Below are positions 26,992-48,716 of a stretch of DNA of 64,000 nt, piece after piece. Source of the DNA: Spirochaetae bacterium HGW-Spirochaetae-5. Its GTDB lineage: Bacteria > Spirochaetota > UBA4802 > UBA5550. Position 1 is the stretch's first letter, and each line of letters starts with the position of its first letter. The notes beneath the pieces were generated by a model. It saw only the letters and a list, made by a program, of their open reading frames with translations. It was not told the DNA's origin and made no database searches. The stretch covers positions 13,861-77,860 of the forward strand of contig PGXT01000002.1 of the NCBI GenBank assembly GCA_002839285.1, read 5' to 3'. A program made the position numbers and the translations under genes.

Positions 26992-27080
26992 TTCCAAAAG
27001 AACAGCAATTATCATTTAATTGATTAAAGATTTGACAAAATTTGCCGATACATATATTAGAAAAGATAAGGGTTATTACA

Positions 27081-27371
27081 ATGGTAATAGAAAAAATTGG
27101 AAATATTAATAATATCACGGAAACCAAGAAAAGTAAGCATGTTTCCGGGAAAAAAGAAGAAATTAAAAGCGATTCCATTGAGATTTCATCAGCCGGTAAA
27201 CAGGCTGCTGAGATAGCTAAAAGCGCTCAGATAGTTAAAGATACCCCGGATATACGAGCTGAGAGAGTAAAAGATATCAAAATGAGAATCGATAACGGTA
27301 CTTATGATTTTAATGATAATAAAATGCTGGAAATGGTAGCAGATAAAATTGCGAATTTCCTTGTAAGATAA
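27081..27371 (+). CDS. flgM: FlgM-family anti-sigma-28 factor
   Basis: DSIEISSAGKQAAE..., IRAERVKDIKMRIDNGTYDFNDNKMLEMVADKIANFLVR. Confidence 0.8.
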   Translation: MVIEKIGNINNITETKKSKHVSGKKEEIKSDSIEISSAGKQAAEIAKSAQIVKDTPDIRAERVKDIKMRIDNGTYDFNDNKMLEMVADKIANFLVR

Positions 27372-27393: not shown

Positions 27394-27433
27394 AAATAAA
27401 AGCGGGGATATCATATATGTCCGCTTTTTTTAT
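27394..27433 (+). terminator. Rho-independent terminator downstream of flgM-like gene
   Basis: AAAAGCGGGgatatcatatatgtCCGCTTTTTTT. Confidence 0.65.
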
Positions 27434-27468: not shown

Positions 27469-28632
27469 TTGAGCGATATTATATCACCTGAATTTCATCT
27501 TCCGACAGAAATATATATTAAGCAGGGTATAAGCAGGAACGCTGCAGAAATTGCATCAAAATTCGGTTCAAGAATTGTTATAGTAACCGTATCCACAGAT
27601 TTTGAAGTATACCAGGAAACTCTGTCAGAAATATACAGGTATTTTAAAAATATAAATCTTGGTTGCATAATCTACGATGAACTACCGGGGAATCCGACAA
27701 CAGAAGATATTGATGTTGCGGTTTCATTCATAAAAAAAACAAAATGTGACCTTATTATCGGTTTTGGAGGAATTGAATCACTTAATTCTGCCAAAGCTAT
27801 TGCACTTCTTATTAAAAACTTCATATTCTGTTATGACGCGTTATACACGAAGGAGAAGTTAAACCCTCCAGCAAAATATATAACCATGCCGGCCTACCCC
27901 TCTTTCGGGTTTGAGATTTCGCCTATGTTTTATATTAAAGAGATCCATAAACTGACAAACCAGGTTTATTACAATCTGAATCTATACCCATTAGCATCCA
28001 TTGTTGATCCGGAATTATCCCTGCTGATGCCTGAAGATAAAATTTTAAAAACATCCGCAAGCTCACTTGCAGTAGCAACCGAATCCGTTATTTCCACGAT
28101 GAATAATGATGTAATCAATACCTACGCGTTGAAGGCGATAGATTTAACATTCAGGAACCTCCCTGTTGCTTTCAAAGAATCTAAAAACGTTGTGCCGAGA
28201 ATCAATCTGTCAACAGCCTCTGTCATGTCAGGTATTGCCTTTTCTGTTGCTTTTCTGTCTGTATCTCTCGCCCTGGCTCTTGCGATATCATCAAAGACAG
28301 ATATAGATGTTGAAACCGCCATGTCGGTAATAATTCCTCATATTATGGAATTCAACCTCACGACTTCACCTGGTAAATATGTCCAGATGTCAAAAGTTAT
28401 GGGGGAGGATGTAAAGGATATAACAGTTATCGAGGCGGCAATTAAAGCGGTAGAAGCAGTAAGAAAGCTTGAGATAGATATTGAAATTCCTCAGAGATTA
28501 TCAAGTTTTAAAATAAATCAAAGCCAGTTTAAAAGTATTGCCGATCTGGCTTTCACCTATCCGTTCATCAATAACACTCCAAGAAAAATATCTAAAAGCG
28601 AAATCGAAACGATACTAATTGCGGCATTCTAA
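27469..28632 (+). CDS. Iron-containing alcohol dehydrogenase-fold protein, metal ligands lost (putative pseudoenzyme)
   Basis: Family framework retained (NPTTEDIDVAVSFIKKTKCDLIIGFGG, SIVDPELSL, SGIAFSVAFL, IIPHIMEFN) but ligand positions substituted; TTG start. Confidence 0.85.
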   Translation: MSDIISPEFHLPTEIYIKQGISRNAAEIASKFGSRIVIVTVSTDFEVYQETLSEIYRYFKNINLGCIIYDELPGNPTTEDIDVAVSFIKKTKCDLIIGFGGIESLNSAKAIALLIKNFIFCYDALYTKEKLNPPAKYITMPAYPSFGFEISPMFYIKEIHKLTNQVYYNLNLYPLASIVDPELSLLMPEDKILKTSASSLAVATESVISTMNNDVINTYALKAIDLTFRNLPVAFKESKNVVPRINLSTASVMSGIAFSVAFLSVSLALALAISSKTDIDVETAMSVIIPHIMEFNLTTSPGKYVQMSKVMGEDVKDITVIEAAIKAVEAVRKLEIDIEIPQRLSSFKINQSQFKSIADLAFTYPFINNTPRKISKSEIETILIAAF

Positions 28633-29094
28633 TCAGACAACTGCAAGATCCTCTGCTGAAAATATCTGATTTATATCAAGAATTACAACAAACCCGGTTT
28701 TCAGCTTTGCGATTCCAACTATATACTTCCCGGAAATACCCTTTACTACAGGGGGGGGAGGTTCAATTTCATTAAGATCAACCTTAATTACATGGCTTAC
28801 TGAATCTATTGCAAGACCGACCCTTTTACCGTCTATATCGACAACAATTGTTCTGCTTGAATTACTTAAATCTGCTATTATACCGAATTTTTTACCAAGA
28901 TCGATGATTGGAATAACTTTCCCTCTTAAATCAATTACACCCATAATATGTGTACGGGATTTTGGAAGCTTTGTTATTTTTGGAACTTTTAATATCTCCT
29001 GAACTTGAAGTATGTCTATTCCATACTCTTCACTGCCGATTTTAAAACAAACTATCTGAAGTGATGTGGTAACTTCCATTTTTTTCTGCTGCAT
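28633..29094 (-). CDS. cheW: CheW chemotaxis adaptor
   Basis: FKIGSEEYGIDILQVQEILKVPKITKLPKSRTHIMGVIDLRGKVIPIIDLGKKFG. Confidence 0.95.
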   Translation of the reverse strand: MQQKKMEVTTSLQIVCFKIGSEEYGIDILQVQEILKVPKITKLPKSRTHIMGVIDLRGKVIPIIDLGKKFGIIADLSNSSRTIVVDIDGKRVGLAIDSVSHVIKVDLNEIEPPPPVVKGISGKYIVGIAKLKTGFVVILDINQIFSAEDLAVV

Positions 29095-29487: not shown

Positions 29488-30192
29488 TCAGAAGTAAAGA
29501 TAGCCATAAAAATATATTACGCTTCCGGCAATGAGAAAGAAAAATATTTTTGTGAATACCGGTTCCCTCTCTCTCAACAATATATCAAAAACTCCGAGAA
29601 GCATACCCCATATAACCGATGCAGCTCCTGCTGCCATTAAATCGTACTGCCCGATGAAGAAAAATAACCCGGCAATAACAAAACCGGTCAGTATATCAAA
29701 AAGGTCTATGATACCGGCTTTACCCGAAACCTGCCCTGCAGAATTATCAGATTCAGTATATGGATTTTCATCAGGTTTAAAATACTTTCTCTTTACTTCC
29801 TGTCTTTCAACTTGTAATCGTTCTTTTTTAGAATTCCCGCGGGAAGGGGCTGATTTTGAAATACCGTAATTACCGCTTATAAGCTTAAGAACATCTTTAT
29901 TAGGGAGTGTTGAAAACTCTTTTGCCCTTTCACTCAATCTTTCTGAAACCCGTGTTGATCTTCCATTGCTGTTTTTTTCTATTGTAACGCGCCCTTTATT
30001 GATGACGGCATAATAAGAAGCCCCCTTGTCCTCATTGACTTCGGCATATATTCTTACAATTTTTTCGTCAATGTTATAATCAACCCTTATATAATCTCCA
30101 TTATCAGTAGTTGCATACATAGCACGCTCGTACCCCCGGATTTCCGAGGGCCGCCTTTTCCAGGTGAATTCAGTATTTTCATTAACTTCCAT
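29488..30192 (-). CDS. Hypothetical protein with two C-terminal TM segments
   Basis: Intact ORF; C-terminal hydrophobic segments (GFVIAGLFFFIGQYDLMAAGAASVIWGMLLGVFDILL, IFFFLIAGSVIYFYGYLYF). Confidence 0.6.
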   Translation of the reverse strand: MEVNENTEFTWKRRPSEIRGYERAMYATTDNGDYIRVDYNIDEKIVRIYAEVNEDKGASYYAVINKGRVTIEKNSNGRSTRVSERLSERAKEFSTLPNKDVLKLISGNYGISKSAPSRGNSKKERLQVERQEVKRKYFKPDENPYTESDNSAGQVSGKAGIIDLFDILTGFVIAGLFFFIGQYDLMAAGAASVIWGMLLGVFDILLREREPVFTKIFFFLIAGSVIYFYGYLYF

Positions 30193-30212
30193 AATATCAT
30201 CACCTCTAAATA

Positions 30213-30249
30213 CTAAAAGAGATTGGCCTTAATTGCCAATCTCTTTTTA
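30213..30249 (-). terminator. Rho-independent terminator
   Basis: AAAAAGAGATTGGCaattaagGCCAATCTCTTTT. Confidence 0.75.
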
Positions 30250-30264
30250 AAAGACCAAATTAAA

Positions 30265-30354
30265 TCATTTTTTCTTGTGACGATTCTGTCTTCTACGTTT
30301 CTTCCTTTTATGGTTCGCTATCTTTTTTCTTTTCTTTTTTTTACCGCAGGGCAT
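30265..30354 (-). CDS. 29-aa AURKAIP1/COX24 (mS38-like) domain small basic protein
   Basis: Translates to MPCGKKKKRKKIANHKRKKRRRQNRHKKK followed by TGA; below ORF-track size cutoff; followed by a strong terminator. Confidence 0.8.
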   Translation of the reverse strand: MPCGKKKKRKKIANHKRKKRRRQNRHKKK

Positions 30355-30395
30355 AAAAAAACTCCTTATTATAAATTACTTCATTTTAATCTTTT

Positions 30396-31289
30396 TCACC
30401 GTAGATTATCAACATCTCCCTTTACACCGGGTTTTGTACCGTCAGAACTCTCATTGAACATGGCGGGTAAACCTGTTTTATCCGATGATATTATAACTTT
30501 TATATCATCGCCCATTTTGTCAATATAAATAAATTTTAAAATTTCAGGATTATCCTTCATAATTGAAGAAACCCGTAGTAATTTCTCATAATATAATTCA
30601 TTTTCATGTTTGTCTTTAATCAGCTTTTTAGCAAGCAGTATCTCCTGCTTTTTATTAGAAAAATCAAGCTCGCGCATCTCTCTATTCTGTGCCAGACCTT
30701 CACTGAAATACTTATTATCAGGGAAATATCCAGGGGAGATAAATTCCACACTGTCAGGAATTACACCAATAACAGGTATTTTCTTCATAAACTCTGATGT
30801 CATCAAATCAATTATCTTTTTTTCATCTTTAAGAATTCTATTGCGGTCATAAACAGGTTCAATGTAATTCATCAAAACAGTCTGACATACTAGTGACGCT
30901 TTTTCAATTATATAGTTTTCTATCCCGTTTTTACTGTTTAAATAAGAAATATCAGGCATATTTGATTTATCTATGCGATAACTTATATTAGCAGGTAATT
31001 TAATAGTGTACGAATCATCACTTAAGGATGAAAGAGATGGTATTTTCACAGGAATATTAACCAATGAAGAATTTTTTACCGGCATTTTAACAACAGAATA
31101 TTTCCAGGGCATAACACCCTGCCATATAAAGTTGTAAGAACCAGTGTAAACCTGCATAACTCCGTTACTCCTTGTATCCTTTAACACTACAAAATCCTCA
31201 CTAACTGATTTATATAATGAAAAATACAATCCGTAAATTACAGCTGAAAAAATAACCAGTTTTATCAATAGTTTTATGAGAGTTTTCAT
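30396..31289 (-). CDS. Membrane-anchored SPFH/band 7-like hypothetical protein
   Basis: N-terminal TM, then V..GSYNFIWQGVMPWKYSVVKMPV and a long helical region; weak family match by eye. Confidence 0.5.
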   Translation of the reverse strand: MKTLIKLLIKLVIFSAVIYGLYFSLYKSVSEDFVVLKDTRSNGVMQVYTGSYNFIWQGVMPWKYSVVKMPVKNSSLVNIPVKIPSLSSLSDDSYTIKLPANISYRIDKSNMPDISYLNSKNGIENYIIEKASLVCQTVLMNYIEPVYDRNRILKDEKKIIDLMTSEFMKKIPVIGVIPDSVEFISPGYFPDNKYFSEGLAQNREMRELDFSNKKQEILLAKKLIKDKHENELYYEKLLRVSSIMKDNPEILKFIYIDKMGDDIKVIISSDKTGLPAMFNESSDGTKPGVKGDVDNLR

Positions 31290-37112: not shown

Positions 37113-39029
37113 TCACCTTCTTCTGACTACAGTTGTTATCCGCTGACTTCCTTCGACAAAAACAGGGGGGTCATAATCTGAAATGTTTATTTCATCCCCT
37201 TTAAGTGAAAACTTAACATGATTATAATTATCCCGTATCTTGAAATCTTTGTCCTTAATATATATTTCGACTCCGGGATAGGCAACTTTTTCCGCGCAGA
37301 CCTTACCCTTATGTTCAAGAAGATTCATGTATTCATTAAGCTCTTCAAGCTCTCCTGAAATCTCAGCATGTCTGCCGGCCTGTTTCTCTTCACGTGACGT
37401 GAGATCAACAAGCATCTTCTCTTTATCATCGGACAGTTTTCCTCCGGCATTACGCTTCTGAGTATTAAGAGTCTTAAGATCCAGACGTAAAGTTGTGAGC
37501 TCATCTTCAAGTAATTTATTAGCATCCATCAGATCATCAATCTGCTGAAGCATCTTCGGATTTACACCGACCCTTATTACAGTTTTAGTAGAACCTTCCG
37601 CTCCGAGATAACCGGCATTGACTTCATCTCCTGCACGGATAAGACCTCCGGCTATTTTTGCCCGTCTTCCGATTGAGTATATTTTTTCACCTGCATCTAC
37701 TCTGCAGTGAAGTATCCCCTCGGGTATAACCACACTTCTCTCGGCGATGATGTTTGAATTCTGGGCAAACTTGGCAAAGACTGAACCGCCGGTAGACTCG
37801 ACCTTGGCTTCATCCTTTCCGGAGATACCCTGATGAACAATAATATCCCCTTCCGCTTCTATAAATGCCTTCTGTACGGTCCCCTTCACTTCAACATTAC
37901 CTGCTGCTTTTACTTCAAAATTATCGAGTACGCTTCCCTGAACTATAACAGATCCGAGAAATACAATATTTCCTGTTTCGAGAGATACATCACCGGATAC
38001 AACAAACACCGGCTCAACAGAGAGTCTCCCAAGTTTAAACACAACCTGACCATTGATCTCCGCTGTAAGCTCGGTTTCATCCTCTGACAGAATGGTTCCT
38101 TTCCCGAATTTTATTGCGGTGTCTTTACCCGATTTTGCCGGCAGAACACGATTGGTTATTGTTCTTCCCGGAATACCCTCTTCCATAGGTACTTTGACGG
38201 CGAGAAGCTGACCGACAACAACGTTTTCAAGAAGTTCAAGATTTTTAAAGTCTACTTTTCCGCTGTCATCCTCTTCAAATTTAATTGTGGTTTTATCTAT
38301 TTTTACTTTATAATCAACATATGCATTGTTTCCATCCCGCGGCAACTGTCCTTCGGCTGCCAGAAGCGGTTTTTTGTAATCCATCTCTTCAAGATATTCT
38401 TTAATAGCCTCATCTTTGATACCGGTCACAACTCCGGAGTTTCTCAGTCCATCAATAACATCTTCGTAATCCATATGTCTGCCGGAGAATTTAGGAGGGT
38501 TAAAATAAACGTATGCTTTCAGTTCGTCTTCTGTAACTTCAACACGCATTGTTGAATCATAAGCAGGATTAGGGAGCCATTCACCGATCTTAACTTTTTC
38601 GCCATTGGCATTTTTAACAGCTTTGGCAACTAATGCCTTGTCAAAATTATTCAGCCTCAGACCGTAACATTTGTTTTCAACAGCTTCAACTGCAACAGGA
38701 AGTCCCTTACCTCTTGGCTTTGTCACCTTAACCCATATTCCGCTCTTTGAAACACGAACCGAAAATGTGCCATCTGCATCTTTTTTATCGTCAATATTTA
38801 AACCGGGGACATAGCCACCCGTGAGCTTCATCTCTATTTCGTCAAGATCATCATGTTCTTCATTCATTTTCAAAGGAGTAATAATAACACGATAAGGGAG
38901 TCGGCCGAAACCGAATAATCCCTTAGTACCCTTCTCTACAACCTCGTAATCGAGTTGTGAGATATCCAATCCCAACTCGCCGGCGGCAATTTCCAGAGCC
39001 TGGTTAACCGAGTCGGCATATACTTCTAT
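37113..39029 (-). CDS. FapA/DUF342-family protein with N-terminal Jag_N-like domain (putative ATA start)
   Basis: [48 protein letters not shown] + DUF342 beta-helix and coiled coil; track start (TTG at 38975) cuts the Jag_N-like region. Confidence 0.88.
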
Positions 39030-39862
39030 GGAACTATCGTCAAATTCACCTGAATCTGAATCTCCGTATTAGATTTAATTCTGCCGAGACGTCCTCTCAG
39101 CCTCATTATTGCCTTGGTATGCAGCTGTGAAACACGGCTTTCCGTAACTTCAAGTACTTCACCAATCTCTTTAAGTGTAAGATCCTCATAATAATATAGA
39201 ACGATAACTTTCTTTTCTTTATCAGGGAGTTTCCGTATTGCATCTATTATATAATCTTTTATCTCTTCTTTTTCTACAAGAACATCGGGGTTCATATTCT
39301 CGGGAGCTTCAAGAGTTTCAAGAATTGATAATTCATCATTATCATCCCCAAGATACCATATATCGTTCAGAGAGAGCATTGAAGTACCACTTAATTTATT
39401 AAGAAGAGACTGGAACTCCTCACTGCTGACGCCCATCTCTTTGGCTATCTCCTCATCCTCTACAGTTCTTCCAAGTTTATTCTCAAGTTCCGAAATTATC
39501 AGCTCTATCTGTTTGGCTTTTTGTCTAATTGAACGCGGAATCCAGTCGATTGAGCGGAGTTCATCAAAGATCGCCCCTCTGATTCTGGTCATAGCATAAG
39601 TTTTAAACTTAATGCCTCTATTGGGATCAAATTTTGTTATAGCATCGAGCAGTCCGAAAATACCATAAGAGACCAGATCATCAAATTCAATATTCTGCGG
39701 CATCCCCATGGATACTTTTCCGGCAACGTATTTGACCAAAGGCGCATATTTCAGCACGAAGAAGTCCCTGATCATCTGGTCATTGGTCTTTGCAAACTTT
39801 TCCCAGAGTTTGTCTTCATCCTGTGCTTCATACTCTTTATACTTTTTATTATCCATATACAC
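39026..39862 (-). CDS. fliA: Flagellar sigma-28 factor (FliA/WhiG)
   Basis: [67 protein letters not shown]. Confidence 0.95.
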
Positions 39863-40447: not shown

Positions 40448-41323
40448 CTACTCTTCAGCATCTAAATTGGAATGTCCGAGCAGATTTTTAATAAAAGATG
40501 TAATTCCGGTACCTTTGTTAAGCTCAATCTCTTTGTTGTTTATCCTGTCAGCAATAACTTTTACACATCCCGATGCTTTTGAGTTCGGATAGCTTACTAT
40601 AAAAGGTTTCTGATTTCTTACAGACTTGGGTACATAAAGATCCTCGTAGACAAAGCCGAGTTCCTCAACTTTAATATTTAAAAACTGGCCTGCAATATTT
40701 ATAACTCTCTGCGCAACCCTTTTCCCCTCTGCAACAGACTGGGCCCTGTTTACTATAAGCTTTATATGCTTTTCATTAGACTGAGATGCTATTGCTTTAA
40801 TTATACCGTAAGCATCAGTTATTGCAGTCGGCTCAGGTGTTGTAACGACTATAACTTCATCGGCAGCCATTACAAAACTTAAGACATTCTGCGAAATACC
40901 CGCTCCGGTATCAACAATAAGAAAATCATCATTGGCAAGTTCCGCTATAGAATGAATAAATTCATCCCGCTGTTTTACATCAAGATTTGCAAGCTGCTGA
41001 AATCCTGAAGCTCCTGCTATAATCTTAATCCCTTCAGGCACTTCAATGATAATATCCTTAAGCTTCTTTTTACCTTTTATTACATGGTAAAGGTTATATT
41101 TTGGTATAATCCCCAGTATAACATTAATATTTGCCAGTCCAAGATCCGCATCGAGAAGAGTCACAGACTTTCCATCCTGCGCAATAGCAATTGCAAGACT
41201 GACAGAGAGACTGGTCTTGCCAACTCCCCCTTTTCCGCTTGTAATTACAATTGTACGGGTGGCCGATGTTCCATCGGGTTTTTTCTCGAGAACCAGTCTT
41301 CTCAGATTTGCTGCCTGATCCAA
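40448..41323 (-). CDS. flhG: MinD/ParA-like ATPase FlhG
   Basis: TIVITSGKGGVGKTSLSVSLAIAIAQDGKSVTLLDADLGLANINVILG; adjacent to flhF. Confidence 0.95.
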   Translation of the reverse strand: MDQAANLRRLVLEKKPDGTSATRTIVITSGKGGVGKTSLSVSLAIAIAQDGKSVTLLDADLGLANINVILGIIPKYNLYHVIKGKKKLKDIIIEVPEGIKIIAGASGFQQLANLDVKQRDEFIHSIAELANDDFLIVDTGAGISQNVLSFVMAADEVIVVTTPEPTAITDAYGIIKAIASQSNEKHIKLIVNRAQSVAEGKRVAQRVINIAGQFLNIKVEELGFVYEDLYVPKSVRNQKPFIVSYPNSKASGCVKVIADRINNKEIELNKGTGITSFIKNLLGHSNLDAEE

Positions 41324-41340
41324 GGGGAACCTCCTAAGAA

Positions 41341-42723
41341 TTATTCGATTGAAGTCCTTATTATCATATCAGCTATCTCTTCAGAATTGGCAATATGAAT
41401 ATCATTGGGAACTTCCTGGCCATCTGTAAAATACGAGATCGGCTTATTATACTTATCGGCAATATCCACAACATTCCCGATAAAAGAAGTTTCATCAACT
41501 TTAGTAATTATTACACTATCAAACTTCATTACATCAAATGCTTTAAAAATCTCTTTCAAATCACCTTTTTTTGTATTTGCACTTACGCATAGTATTTTTT
41601 CAAAATCATATTCCACATTATCAGCAAAACTTTTTATTTCTGAAATTTTTAACTCGTTATTATGACTGCGCCCCGATGTGTCTACCATAATTATATCTGA
41701 TTTCTCTTTAGATATAACATCCCTGAAATGTTTCTGGTCGCTGATAACATGAATCGGAATTCTCATAATTTCGGCATATTTTTTCAGCTGCTCAGTTGCA
41801 GCTATCCTGTAGTTGTCAATTGTTATAAACGATACTTTTTTACCTTCCCGCAGCGAGTTGATAGCACCAAGTTTTGCCATTGTTGTAGTTTTACCTACAC
41901 CGGTAGGTCCTATAAACATAACAATCTTCTTCTTGTTCCCCTTCTTTATAGGTCCCGACGTTACTATACGGCTTTTAATAAGATCTTTAAGGCTTTTTTC
42001 AATTTTATATTTATCCTTCTGATCTTCCCTGCTGATGCTGTTTTTCACATCTTTTATCATAATTTCGCACTCTTCAGGATCAAAATCATTGGCTCTCAGC
42101 ATCTCTTTGAAAGGGGTGAAACAATGATCTTCATCACAGGTACCAGGGGTCTGTTTCTGCCCTTCGAGAAGTTTGTTTAAAGCAGTTTTAATATCATTAA
42201 CTTCACGCTCAATATTGGTGACAATACCGGCTTCGGTATGATTACGGGGCTTCACAGACTCATGAATTTCTGCAATTCTTACCTCTGTTTTTTCTTTTCC
42301 GGCTGAAAAATCATGAAAATCTGAATGAATCTGCGGCTGTTTAAAGCTGTTAAGCCTGTCATTTGCAGTATCAATGGATTTGTTTATAGAATCCACATTA
42401 AAATCATCTTTTACAGCTGATGCTCTTTCAAGAATCTCCTGAACTTTGCCAAGACGTGTGGGCTCTTTCTTATCATCCACAATGAAATCTATAGTGCTTT
42501 TCTTCGGCGGCTGATTCTGGTTCTGACCATGTCCCTGAAAAGGTTTCCTCTCCTTCACCGCTGCAGTGAGCTCAACAACCTCCTTTGCAAATACCTTTGA
42601 ATTAAAAAAACCGCCCTGCTTAACGTATTTATGACTGATGGGAATAGCCTCATCTCCATGCTCCATGCGGAGTTTCTTCATCGCTTCGTTATAATTTTCT
42701 GCTGTTATCTTTAAATATTTCAT
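41341..42723 (-). CDS. flhF: Flagellar SRP-like GTPase FlhF
   Basis: MFIGPTGVGKTTTMAKLGAINSLREGKKVSFITIDNYRIAATEQLKKYAEIM, VDTSGRS. Confidence 0.95.
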   Translation of the reverse strand: MKYLKITAENYNEAMKKLRMEHGDEAIPISHKYVKQGGFFNSKVFAKEVVELTAAVKERKPFQGHGQNQNQPPKKSTIDFIVDDKKEPTRLGKVQEILERASAVKDDFNVDSINKSIDTANDRLNSFKQPQIHSDFHDFSAGKEKTEVRIAEIHESVKPRNHTEAGIVTNIEREVNDIKTALNKLLEGQKQTPGTCDEDHCFTPFKEMLRANDFDPEECEIMIKDVKNSISREDQKDKYKIEKSLKDLIKSRIVTSGPIKKGNKKKIVMFIGPTGVGKTTTMAKLGAINSLREGKKVSFITIDNYRIAATEQLKKYAEIMRIPIHVISDQKHFRDVISKEKSDIIMVDTSGRSHNNELKISEIKSFADNVEYDFEKILCVSANTKKGDLKEIFKAFDVMKFDSVIITKVDETSFIGNVVDIADKYNKPISYFTDGQEVPNDIHIANSEEIADMIIRTSIE

Positions 42724-42802
42724 ACTACTCTCCTGAAATCTTTTTTTCTATCTATACGATTTTTTACTTACTGCTTTTTTCAAAAATATGCTCAACAAAA
42801 CT

Positions 42803-42870
42803 CCCCGGCCCCCGCACCCCGGTCAGGGCAAGAATTCAGCTTTGCCCCGACCGGGGTACGGAGGCTTTAT
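42803..42870. repeat. GC-rich palindromic element, family C (copy 1), between flhA and flhF
   Basis: CCCCGGCCCCCGCACCCCGGTCAGGGCAAGAATTCAGCTTTGCCCCGACCGGGGTACGGAGG. Confidence 0.7.
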
Positions 42871-42871
42871 T

Positions 42872-44977
42872 TTAAACCTGCAATCCCGATGGCAGAAGTG
42901 CCGATACTACAACATTAACTTTAATATTTTTTGTTATTTCATTATAAGCAAACACAACCGGCGCCGGAACTTCACGTTCAAGCAGGGCAAACATTACACT
43001 TCTGATCTGCGGAGATACAAGATAGATGGGGGTGTATCCCATTTTACTGGTTCTCTGATACGCATCGAGAAGTGTATTTACTATGGCATAGTGAGTATCC
43101 GGATCCATTCCGAGTACCTTCCCCTCGATCCGGTCTTCATGAATAGAACTTCTGATAATATTCTCAATTTCCGGATCAACAGTAATTACCGAAAGAACAC
43201 TGTCTTCTGCGGTATATGCACCGGTAATCTGTCTTGCAAGAGCTGTTCTGACATATTCAGTGAGAAGCCCGGCATCACGTGTATGATCTATGTATGTTGC
43301 AATAGTTTCAAGGATTGTAACCATATTCCTTATTGAAACTCTCTCACGAAGCAGATTCTGAAGAATCTTCTGCATTTCACCAAATGATACATTCTTCTCT
43401 TCAATCTCCTTAACAACTGCGGGATAATCTCCGCGGATATTATCGATAAGTTTTTTAACCTCTTCACGTCCCAGAATCTCATCAGCATGACGTTTTATAA
43501 TCTCTGTAAGATGAGTCGCCACAATAGTCGGACAATCAACCACAGTATATCCCCTGCTCTCGGCAAGATCCCGGCTGTCGGAATCTATCCAGATCGCATT
43601 CAGATTAAAAACAGGCTCAATAAATTCAACGCCTTCGATTTTCTCACTTATATCTCCCGAATCCATGGCCATGAGTTTGCCCACCTGAAGCACACCCCGA
43701 CCGACTTCAATCCCCTTAATAAGTATGGAGTACATCTCGGGCTCGAGTTCCATGTTATCCCTTATTCTGATTGGAGGGACAATAAGCCCCATATCAAGGG
43801 CGCTTCTTCTCCGTATATTGGTAATTCTGTCAAGAAGTGTACCCCCCTGTTCCGGATCAACAAGCGGAATTAAATTATATCCGATTTCAACTTCGAGCGG
43901 ATCTATCTGTATAAGAGGTAAAACCGATTCAGGTTTGGTATCTTTCACAGACTGCTGTTTGGCTTCACTTTCCCGATGTTCCCTCTCCTCTTCACGGGAT
44001 TGAGTAAGCATATATCCAAGTGATGCAATTCCCACAGAGAGTAATATCAAAGGAATTTTAGGGAATCCCGGAATAAGTACCGCTGCACCAAGCGCTCCGG
44101 CTGTCATATAAAGCGCTCTGGGTTGTGAGGTGAGCTGATCGGCAATCTGATCACCGAAATTTTCATTTGAAACAGCACGGGTTACGATAATACCTGTAGC
44201 TGTAGTTGTGAGTAATGAAGGGATCTGGCTTACAAGACCATCTCCGATACTCAAAAGGCTGTACGTTTGCAAAGCTACATCAAATGATTCACCGCGTTGA
44301 ACCATCCCTATAATAAATCCGCCGATGAGATTAATAAATGTAATTATAATACCGACTTTCACGTCTCCCGATACAAATTTCGAGGCTCCATCCATGGCTC
44401 CGTAGAAATCCGCCTCTTTCCGGATCTCCTCTCTCCGGATCTTCGCATTTTCTTCTGTGATCAAACCGTTTGACAGGTCTGAGTCGATACTCATCTGTTT
44501 TCCAGGCATTGCATCCAGTGTAAATCGGGCAGCAACTTCAGCTGTTCTGGTGGCACCTTTTGTTATGACAATAAACTGAACTGCGACTAGAATTATAAAG
44601 ATGATAAATCCTACAACGTAATTCCCCCCGACAACAAACATACCGAAGGTTTTAATAATTTTCCCGTCAAATGCAGCACCTTCAAGAAGAATAAGCCTTG
44701 TTGAAGAGACATTCAGCGCCAGCCTGAATACAGTTGTAATAAGAATCAATGACGGGAATATGGAAAAATCGAATGACCGGTGAACGAACATGGTAATCAT
44801 CAGAATAAGCAGACCAAGCATTAAGCTTACTGCAATAAGAAAATCGAGTAAAAAAGTCGGCAGAGGAATAACAAGCATTACCACTACGGAAATGACGCCA
44901 AGTCCTACGAGGATGTCACTCTTCTGCATCCATGATCTGTTGCCGGGTGACAATGATAGTGTTCTTGAGTCAGCCAT
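42872..44977 (-). CDS. flhA: Flagellar biosynthesis protein FlhA
   Basis: [65 protein letters not shown]. Confidence 0.97.
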
Positions 44978-44992
44978 TTTTTAAACTCCTCA

Positions 44993-46150
44993 TCATATTG
45001 CCTTTTTATATCTCTTTTCACGTTTGTAAAGCTCGGCATATACAAATGATACCGCGCGGAATAGATCATCAGGTATTATGTCTCCTACATCTAGACGGTT
45101 ATAGAGCTCCCTGGCAAGGGGTCTGTTCTCTATAAGTTCAACATTATGCTCTTTCGCAACTTCCCTGATTTTAAGAGCCATTGTATCGACACCCTTGGCT
45201 ATAACAGCCGGCGCATCCATGGTATCTCGATCATACTGAAGCGCCACAGCATAGTGAGTCGGGTTTGTTACTACAACGTCCGCCTTCGGAACTTCCCTTA
45301 TCATGTTCTTCATAAGTATTTCCCGCTGCATCTCTCTCATCCTGGCCCGGACATGAGGATCCCCCATGGTCTCCTTCATCTCCTCTTTCATCTCCTGCTT
45401 GCTCATTTTTAATGATTCAATAAATTCACTTTTCTGAAAAAAGTAATCCGGAATAGCAAGTATAAGGAGAAGTACGGTACTCCATATAATTATTTTAAAC
45501 CCTGTCCAGAGGATATTCGACATAGCAAGAGTTATAGAAATATCCGGTGTTTTTAATATTTCATCAAAATCATTTTTGATGATAAGGTATGACACTATAG
45601 CTATTAACGTGATTTTAACTATGGATTTTATTAAATTTGCCGCTATCTGACGCGAAAAAAATATTTTCTTCATGATAGAGGCCGGATCAAGTTTCATTTT
45701 GCTCCAATCGAGCTGTAAAGGATGTGTCGATATCTGAAAACCGACCTGCGAGATTTCAGCAAGAATAGCCCCCATATTTGTTGCAAGAAATATAGGGAAG
45801 AGCAGCTTGGCACTTTCAAAAATAATTTTAAGCATTTCAAGTTCAAGCCATCTTGTTGTTATAGTCTGCCCCGCAAAGGAAGTAAGATAATACTTTACAA
45901 TTGCCGCCATTGAATCATACATCCAGGAACTGAATACAAGAAGCACAAGACATCCCGCTATAACAACTACAGCCTGGGGAAGCTCCTGAGTTTTAACAAC
46001 CTGCCCCTTCTCCCGGGCTTCACGTATCTTCTTTTCTGTCGGTTCTTCGGTACGCCCTTCATCCTCGGCGGCAAAGAGCTGTAGATCTAATCTGAAATCT
46101 TCATTCAGATCTATACAATCAGGATAATATTTTTTCAGAAATTCATTCAT
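44993..46150 (-). CDS. flhB: Flagellar biosynthesis protein FlhB
   Basis: GRTEEPTEKKIREAREKGQVVKTQEL, VVTNPTHYAVALQYD autocleavage motif. Confidence 0.97.
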   Translation of the reverse strand: MNEFLKKYYPDCIDLNEDFRLDLQLFAAEDEGRTEEPTEKKIREAREKGQVVKTQELPQAVVVIAGCLVLLVFSSWMYDSMAAIVKYYLTSFAGQTITTRWLELEMLKIIFESAKLLFPIFLATNMGAILAEISQVGFQISTHPLQLDWSKMKLDPASIMKKIFFSRQIAANLIKSIVKITLIAIVSYLIIKNDFDEILKTPDISITLAMSNILWTGFKIIIWSTVLLLILAIPDYFFQKSEFIESLKMSKQEMKEEMKETMGDPHVRARMREMQREILMKNMIREVPKADVVVTNPTHYAVALQYDRDTMDAPAVIAKGVDTMALKIREVAKEHNVELIENRPLARELYNRLDVGDIIPDDLFRAVSFVYAELYKREKRYKKAI

Positions 46151-46158
46151 AAATATCT

Positions 46159-46935
46159 CTAAACCGGCCAATGGTGCATAACACCGGTAAGTAATTTAAA
46201 ACTCCTTTCAATCGCGACCTGCATTATACGGATTATCAGCGGCGAAGTAAGCGCCAGAAGGCCGAAGCCTACAATTATCTGAATAGGAAAGCCGAACATC
46301 ATAATATTCATCTGAGGAGCTGCCTTTGCAAGTATACCCATGCTGACGGTTATCAGGAACGCAGTGGCTACAATCGGGAGTGATATCTTCAAAGCGACAA
46401 TAAACATCCCGCTGAATGAATAAATCAGATATTTCAAAAAGCCACCCGCTGCTGATTTCCCCATTCCAAATCCCGGCGCAAGCTCAAAAGATCTGTAAAT
46501 TGCTTCAATCAGAAAATGATGCCCGTCAATTGCAAGAAAAACAACAAGTCCTACAAAGTTTTTCAGCTGACCGATAAGCGGAACAGAAACCTGCCCTACC
46601 GGGTCAAGAACCTCATTTATACCGAAACCTATCTGCGCTGCATAATACTGGGCGGATAACTGAAAAGATGTAAAAATAATTGAAACAAGAAATCCTATAT
46701 AGATACCGACCATTGCTTCCTGCAGAACAAGCAGCGAATATAATCCCATATTACCCGGAACTTTTATTGTGGAAATAACAACGGGAAAAATAACCAGGGT
46801 AATAAAGAATGAAAGCATAGCTTTAATTCTAAATGGAATAACCCCACTTGAAAAAAATGGGGCTATCATTATCATGGCGTTTATTCTTACCAGTATAAGA
46901 AAGAAAGCCTGGAAATTATTAACAAAATACTCCAT
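46159..46935 (-). CDS. fliR: Flagellar biosynthetic protein FliR
   Basis: Multi-TM FliR pattern, GFGINEVLDPVGQVSVPLIGQ. Confidence 0.95.
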   Translation of the reverse strand: MEYFVNNFQAFFLILVRINAMIMIAPFFSSGVIPFRIKAMLSFFITLVIFPVVISTIKVPGNMGLYSLLVLQEAMVGIYIGFLVSIIFTSFQLSAQYYAAQIGFGINEVLDPVGQVSVPLIGQLKNFVGLVVFLAIDGHHFLIEAIYRSFELAPGFGMGKSAAGGFLKYLIYSFSGMFIVALKISLPIVATAFLITVSMGILAKAAPQMNIMMFGFPIQIIVGFGLLALTSPLIIRIMQVAIERSFKLLTGVMHHWPV

Positions 46936-48001: not shown

Positions 48002-48716
48002 CGTCGCTACCATTTATATTTTTCAGACGGCTTTTCTGTTTATTCAGGTAACTCATATCAAACTCTTTCTGCGATATCTCCTGCATCATTGTTTTCTTAC
48101 CCCCCTGAGTTCTCTTTTCATTAATCTTGTCGATTACCCAGCCCACCTGACCCGCAATAAACTCAGGAAAAGTAGCACCCTGAACAGGTGTTGACCTTGA
48201 GCTGAGAAGTCTTATCCGGTCGATCTCCTCGCGGTCTTTAATCTCTGTTAAAAGATTTATACTGCTGTCTGAAACGCCCAGCAGGAAGACCTTTCCGGCA
48301 ACATCGATTATCTGAACAAATTTATTTGTTCCCAGTGAAACAGTTGAAAGAATCTGAATTGCATCACCTCCGGACATATGAAGCCCGGTCTTCTGGGAAA
48401 CAAACTTAAAAAACATATAAAAACCGCCGATAAACAGAGCAAGGACGAGAATAGTTTTAATAATCATCCATGCGGCTGACTCCTCTTCTAGCTGCGGCCT
48501 GAAATCCTCTTCTACAAAACCCTCACCCGGAACAGCGGTACCGGAATCAGCAGTAGTTTTCACAGCGGGGGTTTCCGCTGCGGGAGTTTGAGCTGAAGCA
48601 GGAACAGCAGCAGATATCAAAACAGTAAAAAAAACGGAAATAATAAGAATCCGCATAAAAAGTGCTGAACTTATTATTTTCTCCGCCCGATAGGATATTG
48701 AGGTATTATGTCTCAT
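47994..48716 (-). CDS. fliO: Flagellar biosynthetic protein FliO/FliZ (start may be near 48656)
   Basis: Position upstream of fliP; TM + TVSLGTNKFVQIIDVAGKVFLLGVSDSSINLLTEI. Confidence 0.85.
   Translation of the reverse strand: MRHNTSISYRAEKIISSALFMRILIISVFFTVLISAAVPASAQTPAAETPAVKTTADSGTAVPGEGFVEEDFRPQLEEESAAWMIIKTILVLALFIGGFYMFFKFVSQKTGLHMSGGDAIQILSTVSLGTNKFVQIIDVAGKVFLLGVSDSSINLLTEIKDREEIDRIRLLSSRSTPVQGATFPEFIAGQVGWVIDKINEKRTQGGKKTMMQEISQKEFDMSYLNKQKSRLKNINGSDDE

Follow-up and report, generated by a model that had tools for sequence, protein, structure and literature searches.

What does a protein do that keeps the fold of an iron-containing alcohol dehydrogenase (Fe-ADH) after its metal and cofactor sites have gone, and why should its gene lie beside flgM? 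The question is raised by a gene on the plus strand of the window, the 64,000-nucleotide stretch of Spirochaetae bacterium HGW-Spirochaetae-5 DNA that was analyzed here. The original prediction placed an open reading frame of the Fe-ADH family at bp 27469-28632, and both the coordinates and the family hold: the frame begins with a TTG codon and encodes 387 amino acids, and in profile searches its product (called psADH here, as is its family) matches both Pfam domains far above cut-off (Fe-ADH, 1.7e-25, and ADH_Fe_C, 2.3e-29; PF00465 at 90 bits against a cut-off of 31.3, and PF25137 at 102.9 bits against 27). Solved Fe-ADHs align with psADH over most of its length; in the best of them, 1,3-propanediol oxidoreductase 3bfj, GMDALTHAVEA stands opposite SASSLAVATES and HAMAHQLGGLYDMPHGV opposite LALALAISSKTDIDVET.

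The Asp/His/His/His metal site of active Fe-ADHs is absent from psADH. Profile alignment puts the four ligand columns, which are Asp, His, His and His in 47 intact Fe-ADHs, at Ser198, Val202, Leu267 and Val281, so the predicted loss of all four ligands is real. The former Asp/His ligand helix is TSASSLAVATES (bp 28051-28086, plus strand, residues 195-206) and the former His/His region is LALALAISSKTDIDVETA (bp 28267-28320, plus strand, residues 267-284). The original prediction also had a ligand His changed to Leu in the HxMAH stretch and the PHG His changed to Val; the latter is V281, and the former can be given more precisely, since the ligand is the first His of HxMAH (14 residues back from the PHG His; L267 in psADH) and the second His, whose role is in catalysis and not in metal binding (PMC5125639), is Leu as well (L271). 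The degenerate NAD-binding motif, GFGGIESLNSAK (bp 27763-27798, plus strand, residues 98-109; coordinates plus or minus one codon), reads GGIESLNSAK as originally noticed, against GGGSxxD in intact enzymes (consensus xxGGGSxxDxAK), and a second motif has gone too, with AYPSFGFE where TTAGTGSE is usual. psADH therefore lacks both the GGGSxxD and the TTAGTGSE elements of NAD binding in active Fe-ADHs. Neither a sequencing error nor ligands shifted to neighboring positions can account for this, because orthologs at 76 to 23% identity have non-ligand residues at the same columns; the profile alignment shows no shifted ligands, and a search for an ortholog with intact ligands found none.

The fold itself appears to be kept. 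AlphaFold, run on the family alignment, predicts psADH with a pLDDT of 94.3 and a pTM of 0.91, and the solved structures that Foldseek finds closest to the model are Fe-ADHs (3bfj with TM 0.93, rmsd 1.9 and 24% identity). When 86 non-redundant pseudoenzymes were compared with 33 intact Fe-ADHs, Asp at column 198 (100% of intact enzymes) was no longer the commonest residue in the pseudoenzymes, His at column 281 (also 100% of intact enzymes) had given way to other residues, Lys being the most frequent (30%), and residues G102, S103, D106, T143, G145 and T146 of the NAD site were lost; the glycine loop is partly kept (G100 100%, G101 84%), and the common residues at column 271 do not include His. 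Mean conservation around the lost active site is 0.40-0.41 in the pseudoenzymes against 0.55-0.57 in the intact enzymes, whereas in a C-terminal helical block (bp 28309-28503, plus strand, residues 281-345; signature residues E313, E322, E329, R332 and R343) it is 0.57 against 0.50. Conservation has thus shifted from the active site to the C-terminal helices.

A psADH ortholog with an open frame is present in 44 of 45 relatives of the same order (49-76% identity); the exception, G001, is a 73% complete genome in which FlgM was not seen either. More distant families of the Spirochaetota carry psADH at about 16-40% identity. All four columns are filled in 181 distinct sequences, of which 123 lack every one of the three His residues, six have one, five have two and 47 have three. 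Two entries of a separate paralog are included in the 129 with none or one, which leaves about 127 distinct psADH family members with at most one His; the intact Fe-ADHs, which have two or three, number 52. Some Spirochaetales members have kept the Asp and lost the His residues. In a quick maximum likelihood tree, a single branch (SH-aLRT 100) has every intact Fe-ADH to one side of it, and one change separates the two states; this supports, and does not prove, a single origin of the pseudoenzymes, since the root was not inferred and some rows are long. Judged by these sequences, psADH is an old family kept across most of the Spirochaetota and not one odd gene. It is also under strong purifying selection, with dN/dS values of 0.01-0.08 among the twelve closest pairs (dS < 1), which rules out decay to a pseudogene. 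The original view of a maintained protein without a dehydrogenase metal site is supported, then, by the ortholog alignment, the selection data, the high-confidence Fe-ADH fold and the loss of the NAD motif.

The separate paralog (L003) is a degenerate Fe-ADH elsewhere in the same genome (L271:3214-6234, contig C74), with Leu and Gln at the first two ligand columns. An intact Fe-ADH gene is found two genes away; between the two is encoded a 180-amino-acid protein that belongs to no Pfam family, and an aldehyde ferredoxin oxidoreductase gene adjoins them. On the tree L003 groups with the intact clade, which makes it a second, separate loss of Fe-ADH ligands. Several genomes of the order have two adjacent Fe-ADH matches.

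The gene directly upstream of psADH is flgM, which encodes an anti-sigma-28 factor (bp 27081-27371, plus strand, with an ATG start at 27081; an earlier TTG at 27042 appears in the open reading frame listing). Its product matches Pfam FlgM at 4.4e-12 and TIGR03824 at 43.3 bits against a cut-off of 40.75. flgM occupies this position in 100 distinct loci and is by far the commonest neighbor of psADH. Downstream lies a convergent cheW (bp 28633-29094, minus strand), and about 6-18 kb beyond it are cheR, fapA, fliA (sigma-28, FliA/WhiG family; within the flagellar cluster, bp 39026-39862, minus strand) and genes for a MinD-like ATPase, flhF, flhA, flhB and fliR (bp 40448-46935, minus strand). Two consecutive minus-strand frames of 234 and 297 amino acids at bp 29488-31289 adjoin cheW in many genomes of the order; their Pfam matches are sub-threshold only (DUF2207 C-terminal and Band 7). 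In a treponeme with flgM elsewhere, psADH adjoins, and is divergent from, fliQ-fliR-flhB-flhA. Seven families (f15, f20, f30, f32, f34, f36 and f44) have psADH away from flgM, and the loci read there, not all of which are annotated, showed no evident flagellar or conserved neighbors. The flgM-psADH pair is also found on an 8032-base contig (L088) labeled Candidatus Hydrogenedentota; the label may be wrong, since a genome placed in the Spirochaetota (G182) has a contig that is also 8032 bases long.

A sigma-28-like promoter, TAAA-N15-GCCGATAC (bp 27025-27051, plus strand), stands before flgM; it matches 11 of 12 consensus bases, and a TTGACA overlaps it. Of 88 relatives, 82 have a similar site before the gene when the threshold is set loosely; 36% of shuffled sequences clear that threshold too. 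A perfect match to the sigma-28 consensus, TAAA-N15-GCCGATAA, lies near flagellar genes at bp 48407-48433. Between flgM and psADH, folding and comparison reveal a terminator-like hairpin, AAAAGCGGggat..atgtCCGCUUUUUUU (bp 27398-27431, plus strand), with AAAAGCGG and CCGCUUUUUUU flanking the loop; the minimum free energy of the stretch is -20.1 kcal/mol (z -1.98). Such hairpins separate the two genes in 73 of 100 loci. Nearly all genomes of the order share the same GCGG/CCGC stem and a run of U, with a variable loop, and outside the order the stem varies as well. A generic terminator sequence is not the cause of this conservation, as five genomes of the order rarely contain the AAAGCGG..CCGCTTTTT pattern, and two of these have it nowhere but at the flgM-psADH site. 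The hairpin speaks against the two genes being simply co-expressed at equal levels and may set psADH below FlgM, in that only part of the transcripts would continue past it into psADH. The same element might also be a protein-binding attenuator.

Across 393 Spirochaetota genomes, FlgM and psADH (scored as present at E < 1e-79, a threshold taken from the bimodal scores) are both found in 268 and both missing from 82, while 39 have only FlgM and four only psADH (Fisher p = 8e-49, a value that ignores shared ancestry, families f39 and f49 supplying most of the double absences). All four psADH-only genomes are assemblies of at least 470 contigs, and several of the FlgM-only genomes (G051, G129, G314 and G349) hold a very diverged psADH beside flgM that falls below the threshold. 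Borrelia-like genomes (f39; this name and that of the treponemes are inferred) have FlhA, with FliA below cut-off and FlgM and psADH absent; the f49 genomes tested lack FlhA, FliA, FlgM and psADH alike; and G362 and G371 keep FliA and lack the other three. From these patterns, psADH presence tracks FlgM better than it tracks flagella or FliA as such. Three genomes, G277, G245 and the 1.1-Mb treponeme G096, have FlgM, FliA and FlhA without psADH. The original prediction dealt with a single odd protein; more important is that it belongs to a phylum-wide family with ties to flgM.

Given that the metal and cofactor sites are lost and that the gene usually lies beside flgM, psADH is probably not an enzyme but a regulator of motility that has yet to be studied. 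Once catalysis is lost, what is left to the protein is binding, and it may well act, without catalysis, as a regulator or scaffold at the step where sigma-28 and FlgM control flagellar assembly in spirochaetes. Its partner would probably be FlgM or the FlgM-FliA complex, contacted by the conserved helical block at the C terminus, and psADH could thereby adjust the stability, release or export of FlgM, or the availability of FliA. A more tentative suggestion is that psADH is an ancient, spirochaete-specific pseudoenzyme, derived from an Fe-ADH, that is dedicated to this checkpoint through binding FlgM or FlgM-FliA. Weighing against a role at the FlgM step are the FlgM lineages that lack psADH and the several families in which psADH lies away from flgM. 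psADH might instead be a scaffold or chaperone of flagellar assembly whose partner is some other flagellar component (export gate, flagellin, hook or rod protein), with the place beside flgM due to both being needed at the same stage. The gene adjoins the fliQ-fliR-flhB-flhA operon in a treponeme and is absent where FlhA is absent (the f49 genomes tested, and G362 and G371 in spite of their FliA), both of which suit such a role, but the Borrelia-like genomes keep flagella yet lack psADH, FlgM and FliA, and flgM is by far the commonest neighbor, so this seems somewhat doubtful.

A regulator that senses a metabolite or nucleotide, its degenerate pocket binding a small ligand and coupling metabolic state to motility in the manner one might expect of ErcA-like regulatory Fe-ADHs, is unlikely: the predicted two-domain cleft and part of the glycine loop are kept, and the ErcA model is the best NCBIfam match (though far below its cut-off), yet the positions that held NAD and metal vary freely, and conservation peaks in the C-terminal helices instead of the cleft. 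That psADH is an enzyme of the maleylacetate reductase type, transferring hydride without metal, is improbable even though metal-free catalysis exists in the Fe-ADH family (PMC5125639), since the six NAD residues listed above and the catalytic His are lost and no metabolic operon partner is conserved with the gene. A functionless relic carried beside flgM would explain the absent enzymatic site; it is hardly credible, as the selection data already contradict it, the frame is open and undamaged in 44 of 45 relatives, and psADH is retained where it is separated from flgM.

Spirochaetes have the flagellum within the cell envelope, and little is understood of how sigma-28 control works in them. 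Over most of the phylum, a whole enzyme fold stripped of its metal and cofactor sites has been kept as a gene usually linked to flgM, and annotation is likely to call such genes alcohol dehydrogenases and thereby place them in metabolism. If psADH were indeed a dedicated component of the FlgM checkpoint, it could explain why spirochaete FlgM reportedly differs from that of enterobacteria. No NCBIfam model claims psADH, and neither the family nor any Fe-ADH pseudoenzyme beside flgM was found described in the open-access literature; as subscription literature lay outside the search, the family is likely, not certainly, new.

The nearest enzymes are the group III Fe-ADHs (1,3-propanediol dehydrogenase 3bfj, FucO, and AdhB of Zymomonas), which share full-length homology and the two-domain fold with psADH (TM about 0.9) but differ in having the four metal ligands, the catalytic His and the NAD motif, and one strongly supported branch lies between the two groups. 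Maleylacetate reductases (cd08177), also of the Fe-ADH family, need no metal (PMC5125639) but are still enzymes that use NAD(P)H; in psADH the cofactor motif and the catalytic His are gone too. ErcA (NF041833), an alcohol dehydrogenase-like regulatory protein, is an Fe-ADH-fold protein named as a regulator and the best NCBIfam match, but at 157.7 bits against a cut-off of 550 psADH is not a member of that equivalog. The FlgM/FliA pair of Treponema denticola (TDE0201/TDE2683) comes from the same phylum as the window, and according to the portions of PMC12655853 and PMC9481697 considered here its FlgM is unusual: loss of FlgM lowers flagellin expression, FlgM stabilizes FliA, and FlgM meets CsrA. 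Those portions make no mention of an Fe-ADH-like partner. A third component such as psADH would fit this behavior, and psADH is a concrete candidate for what underlies it.
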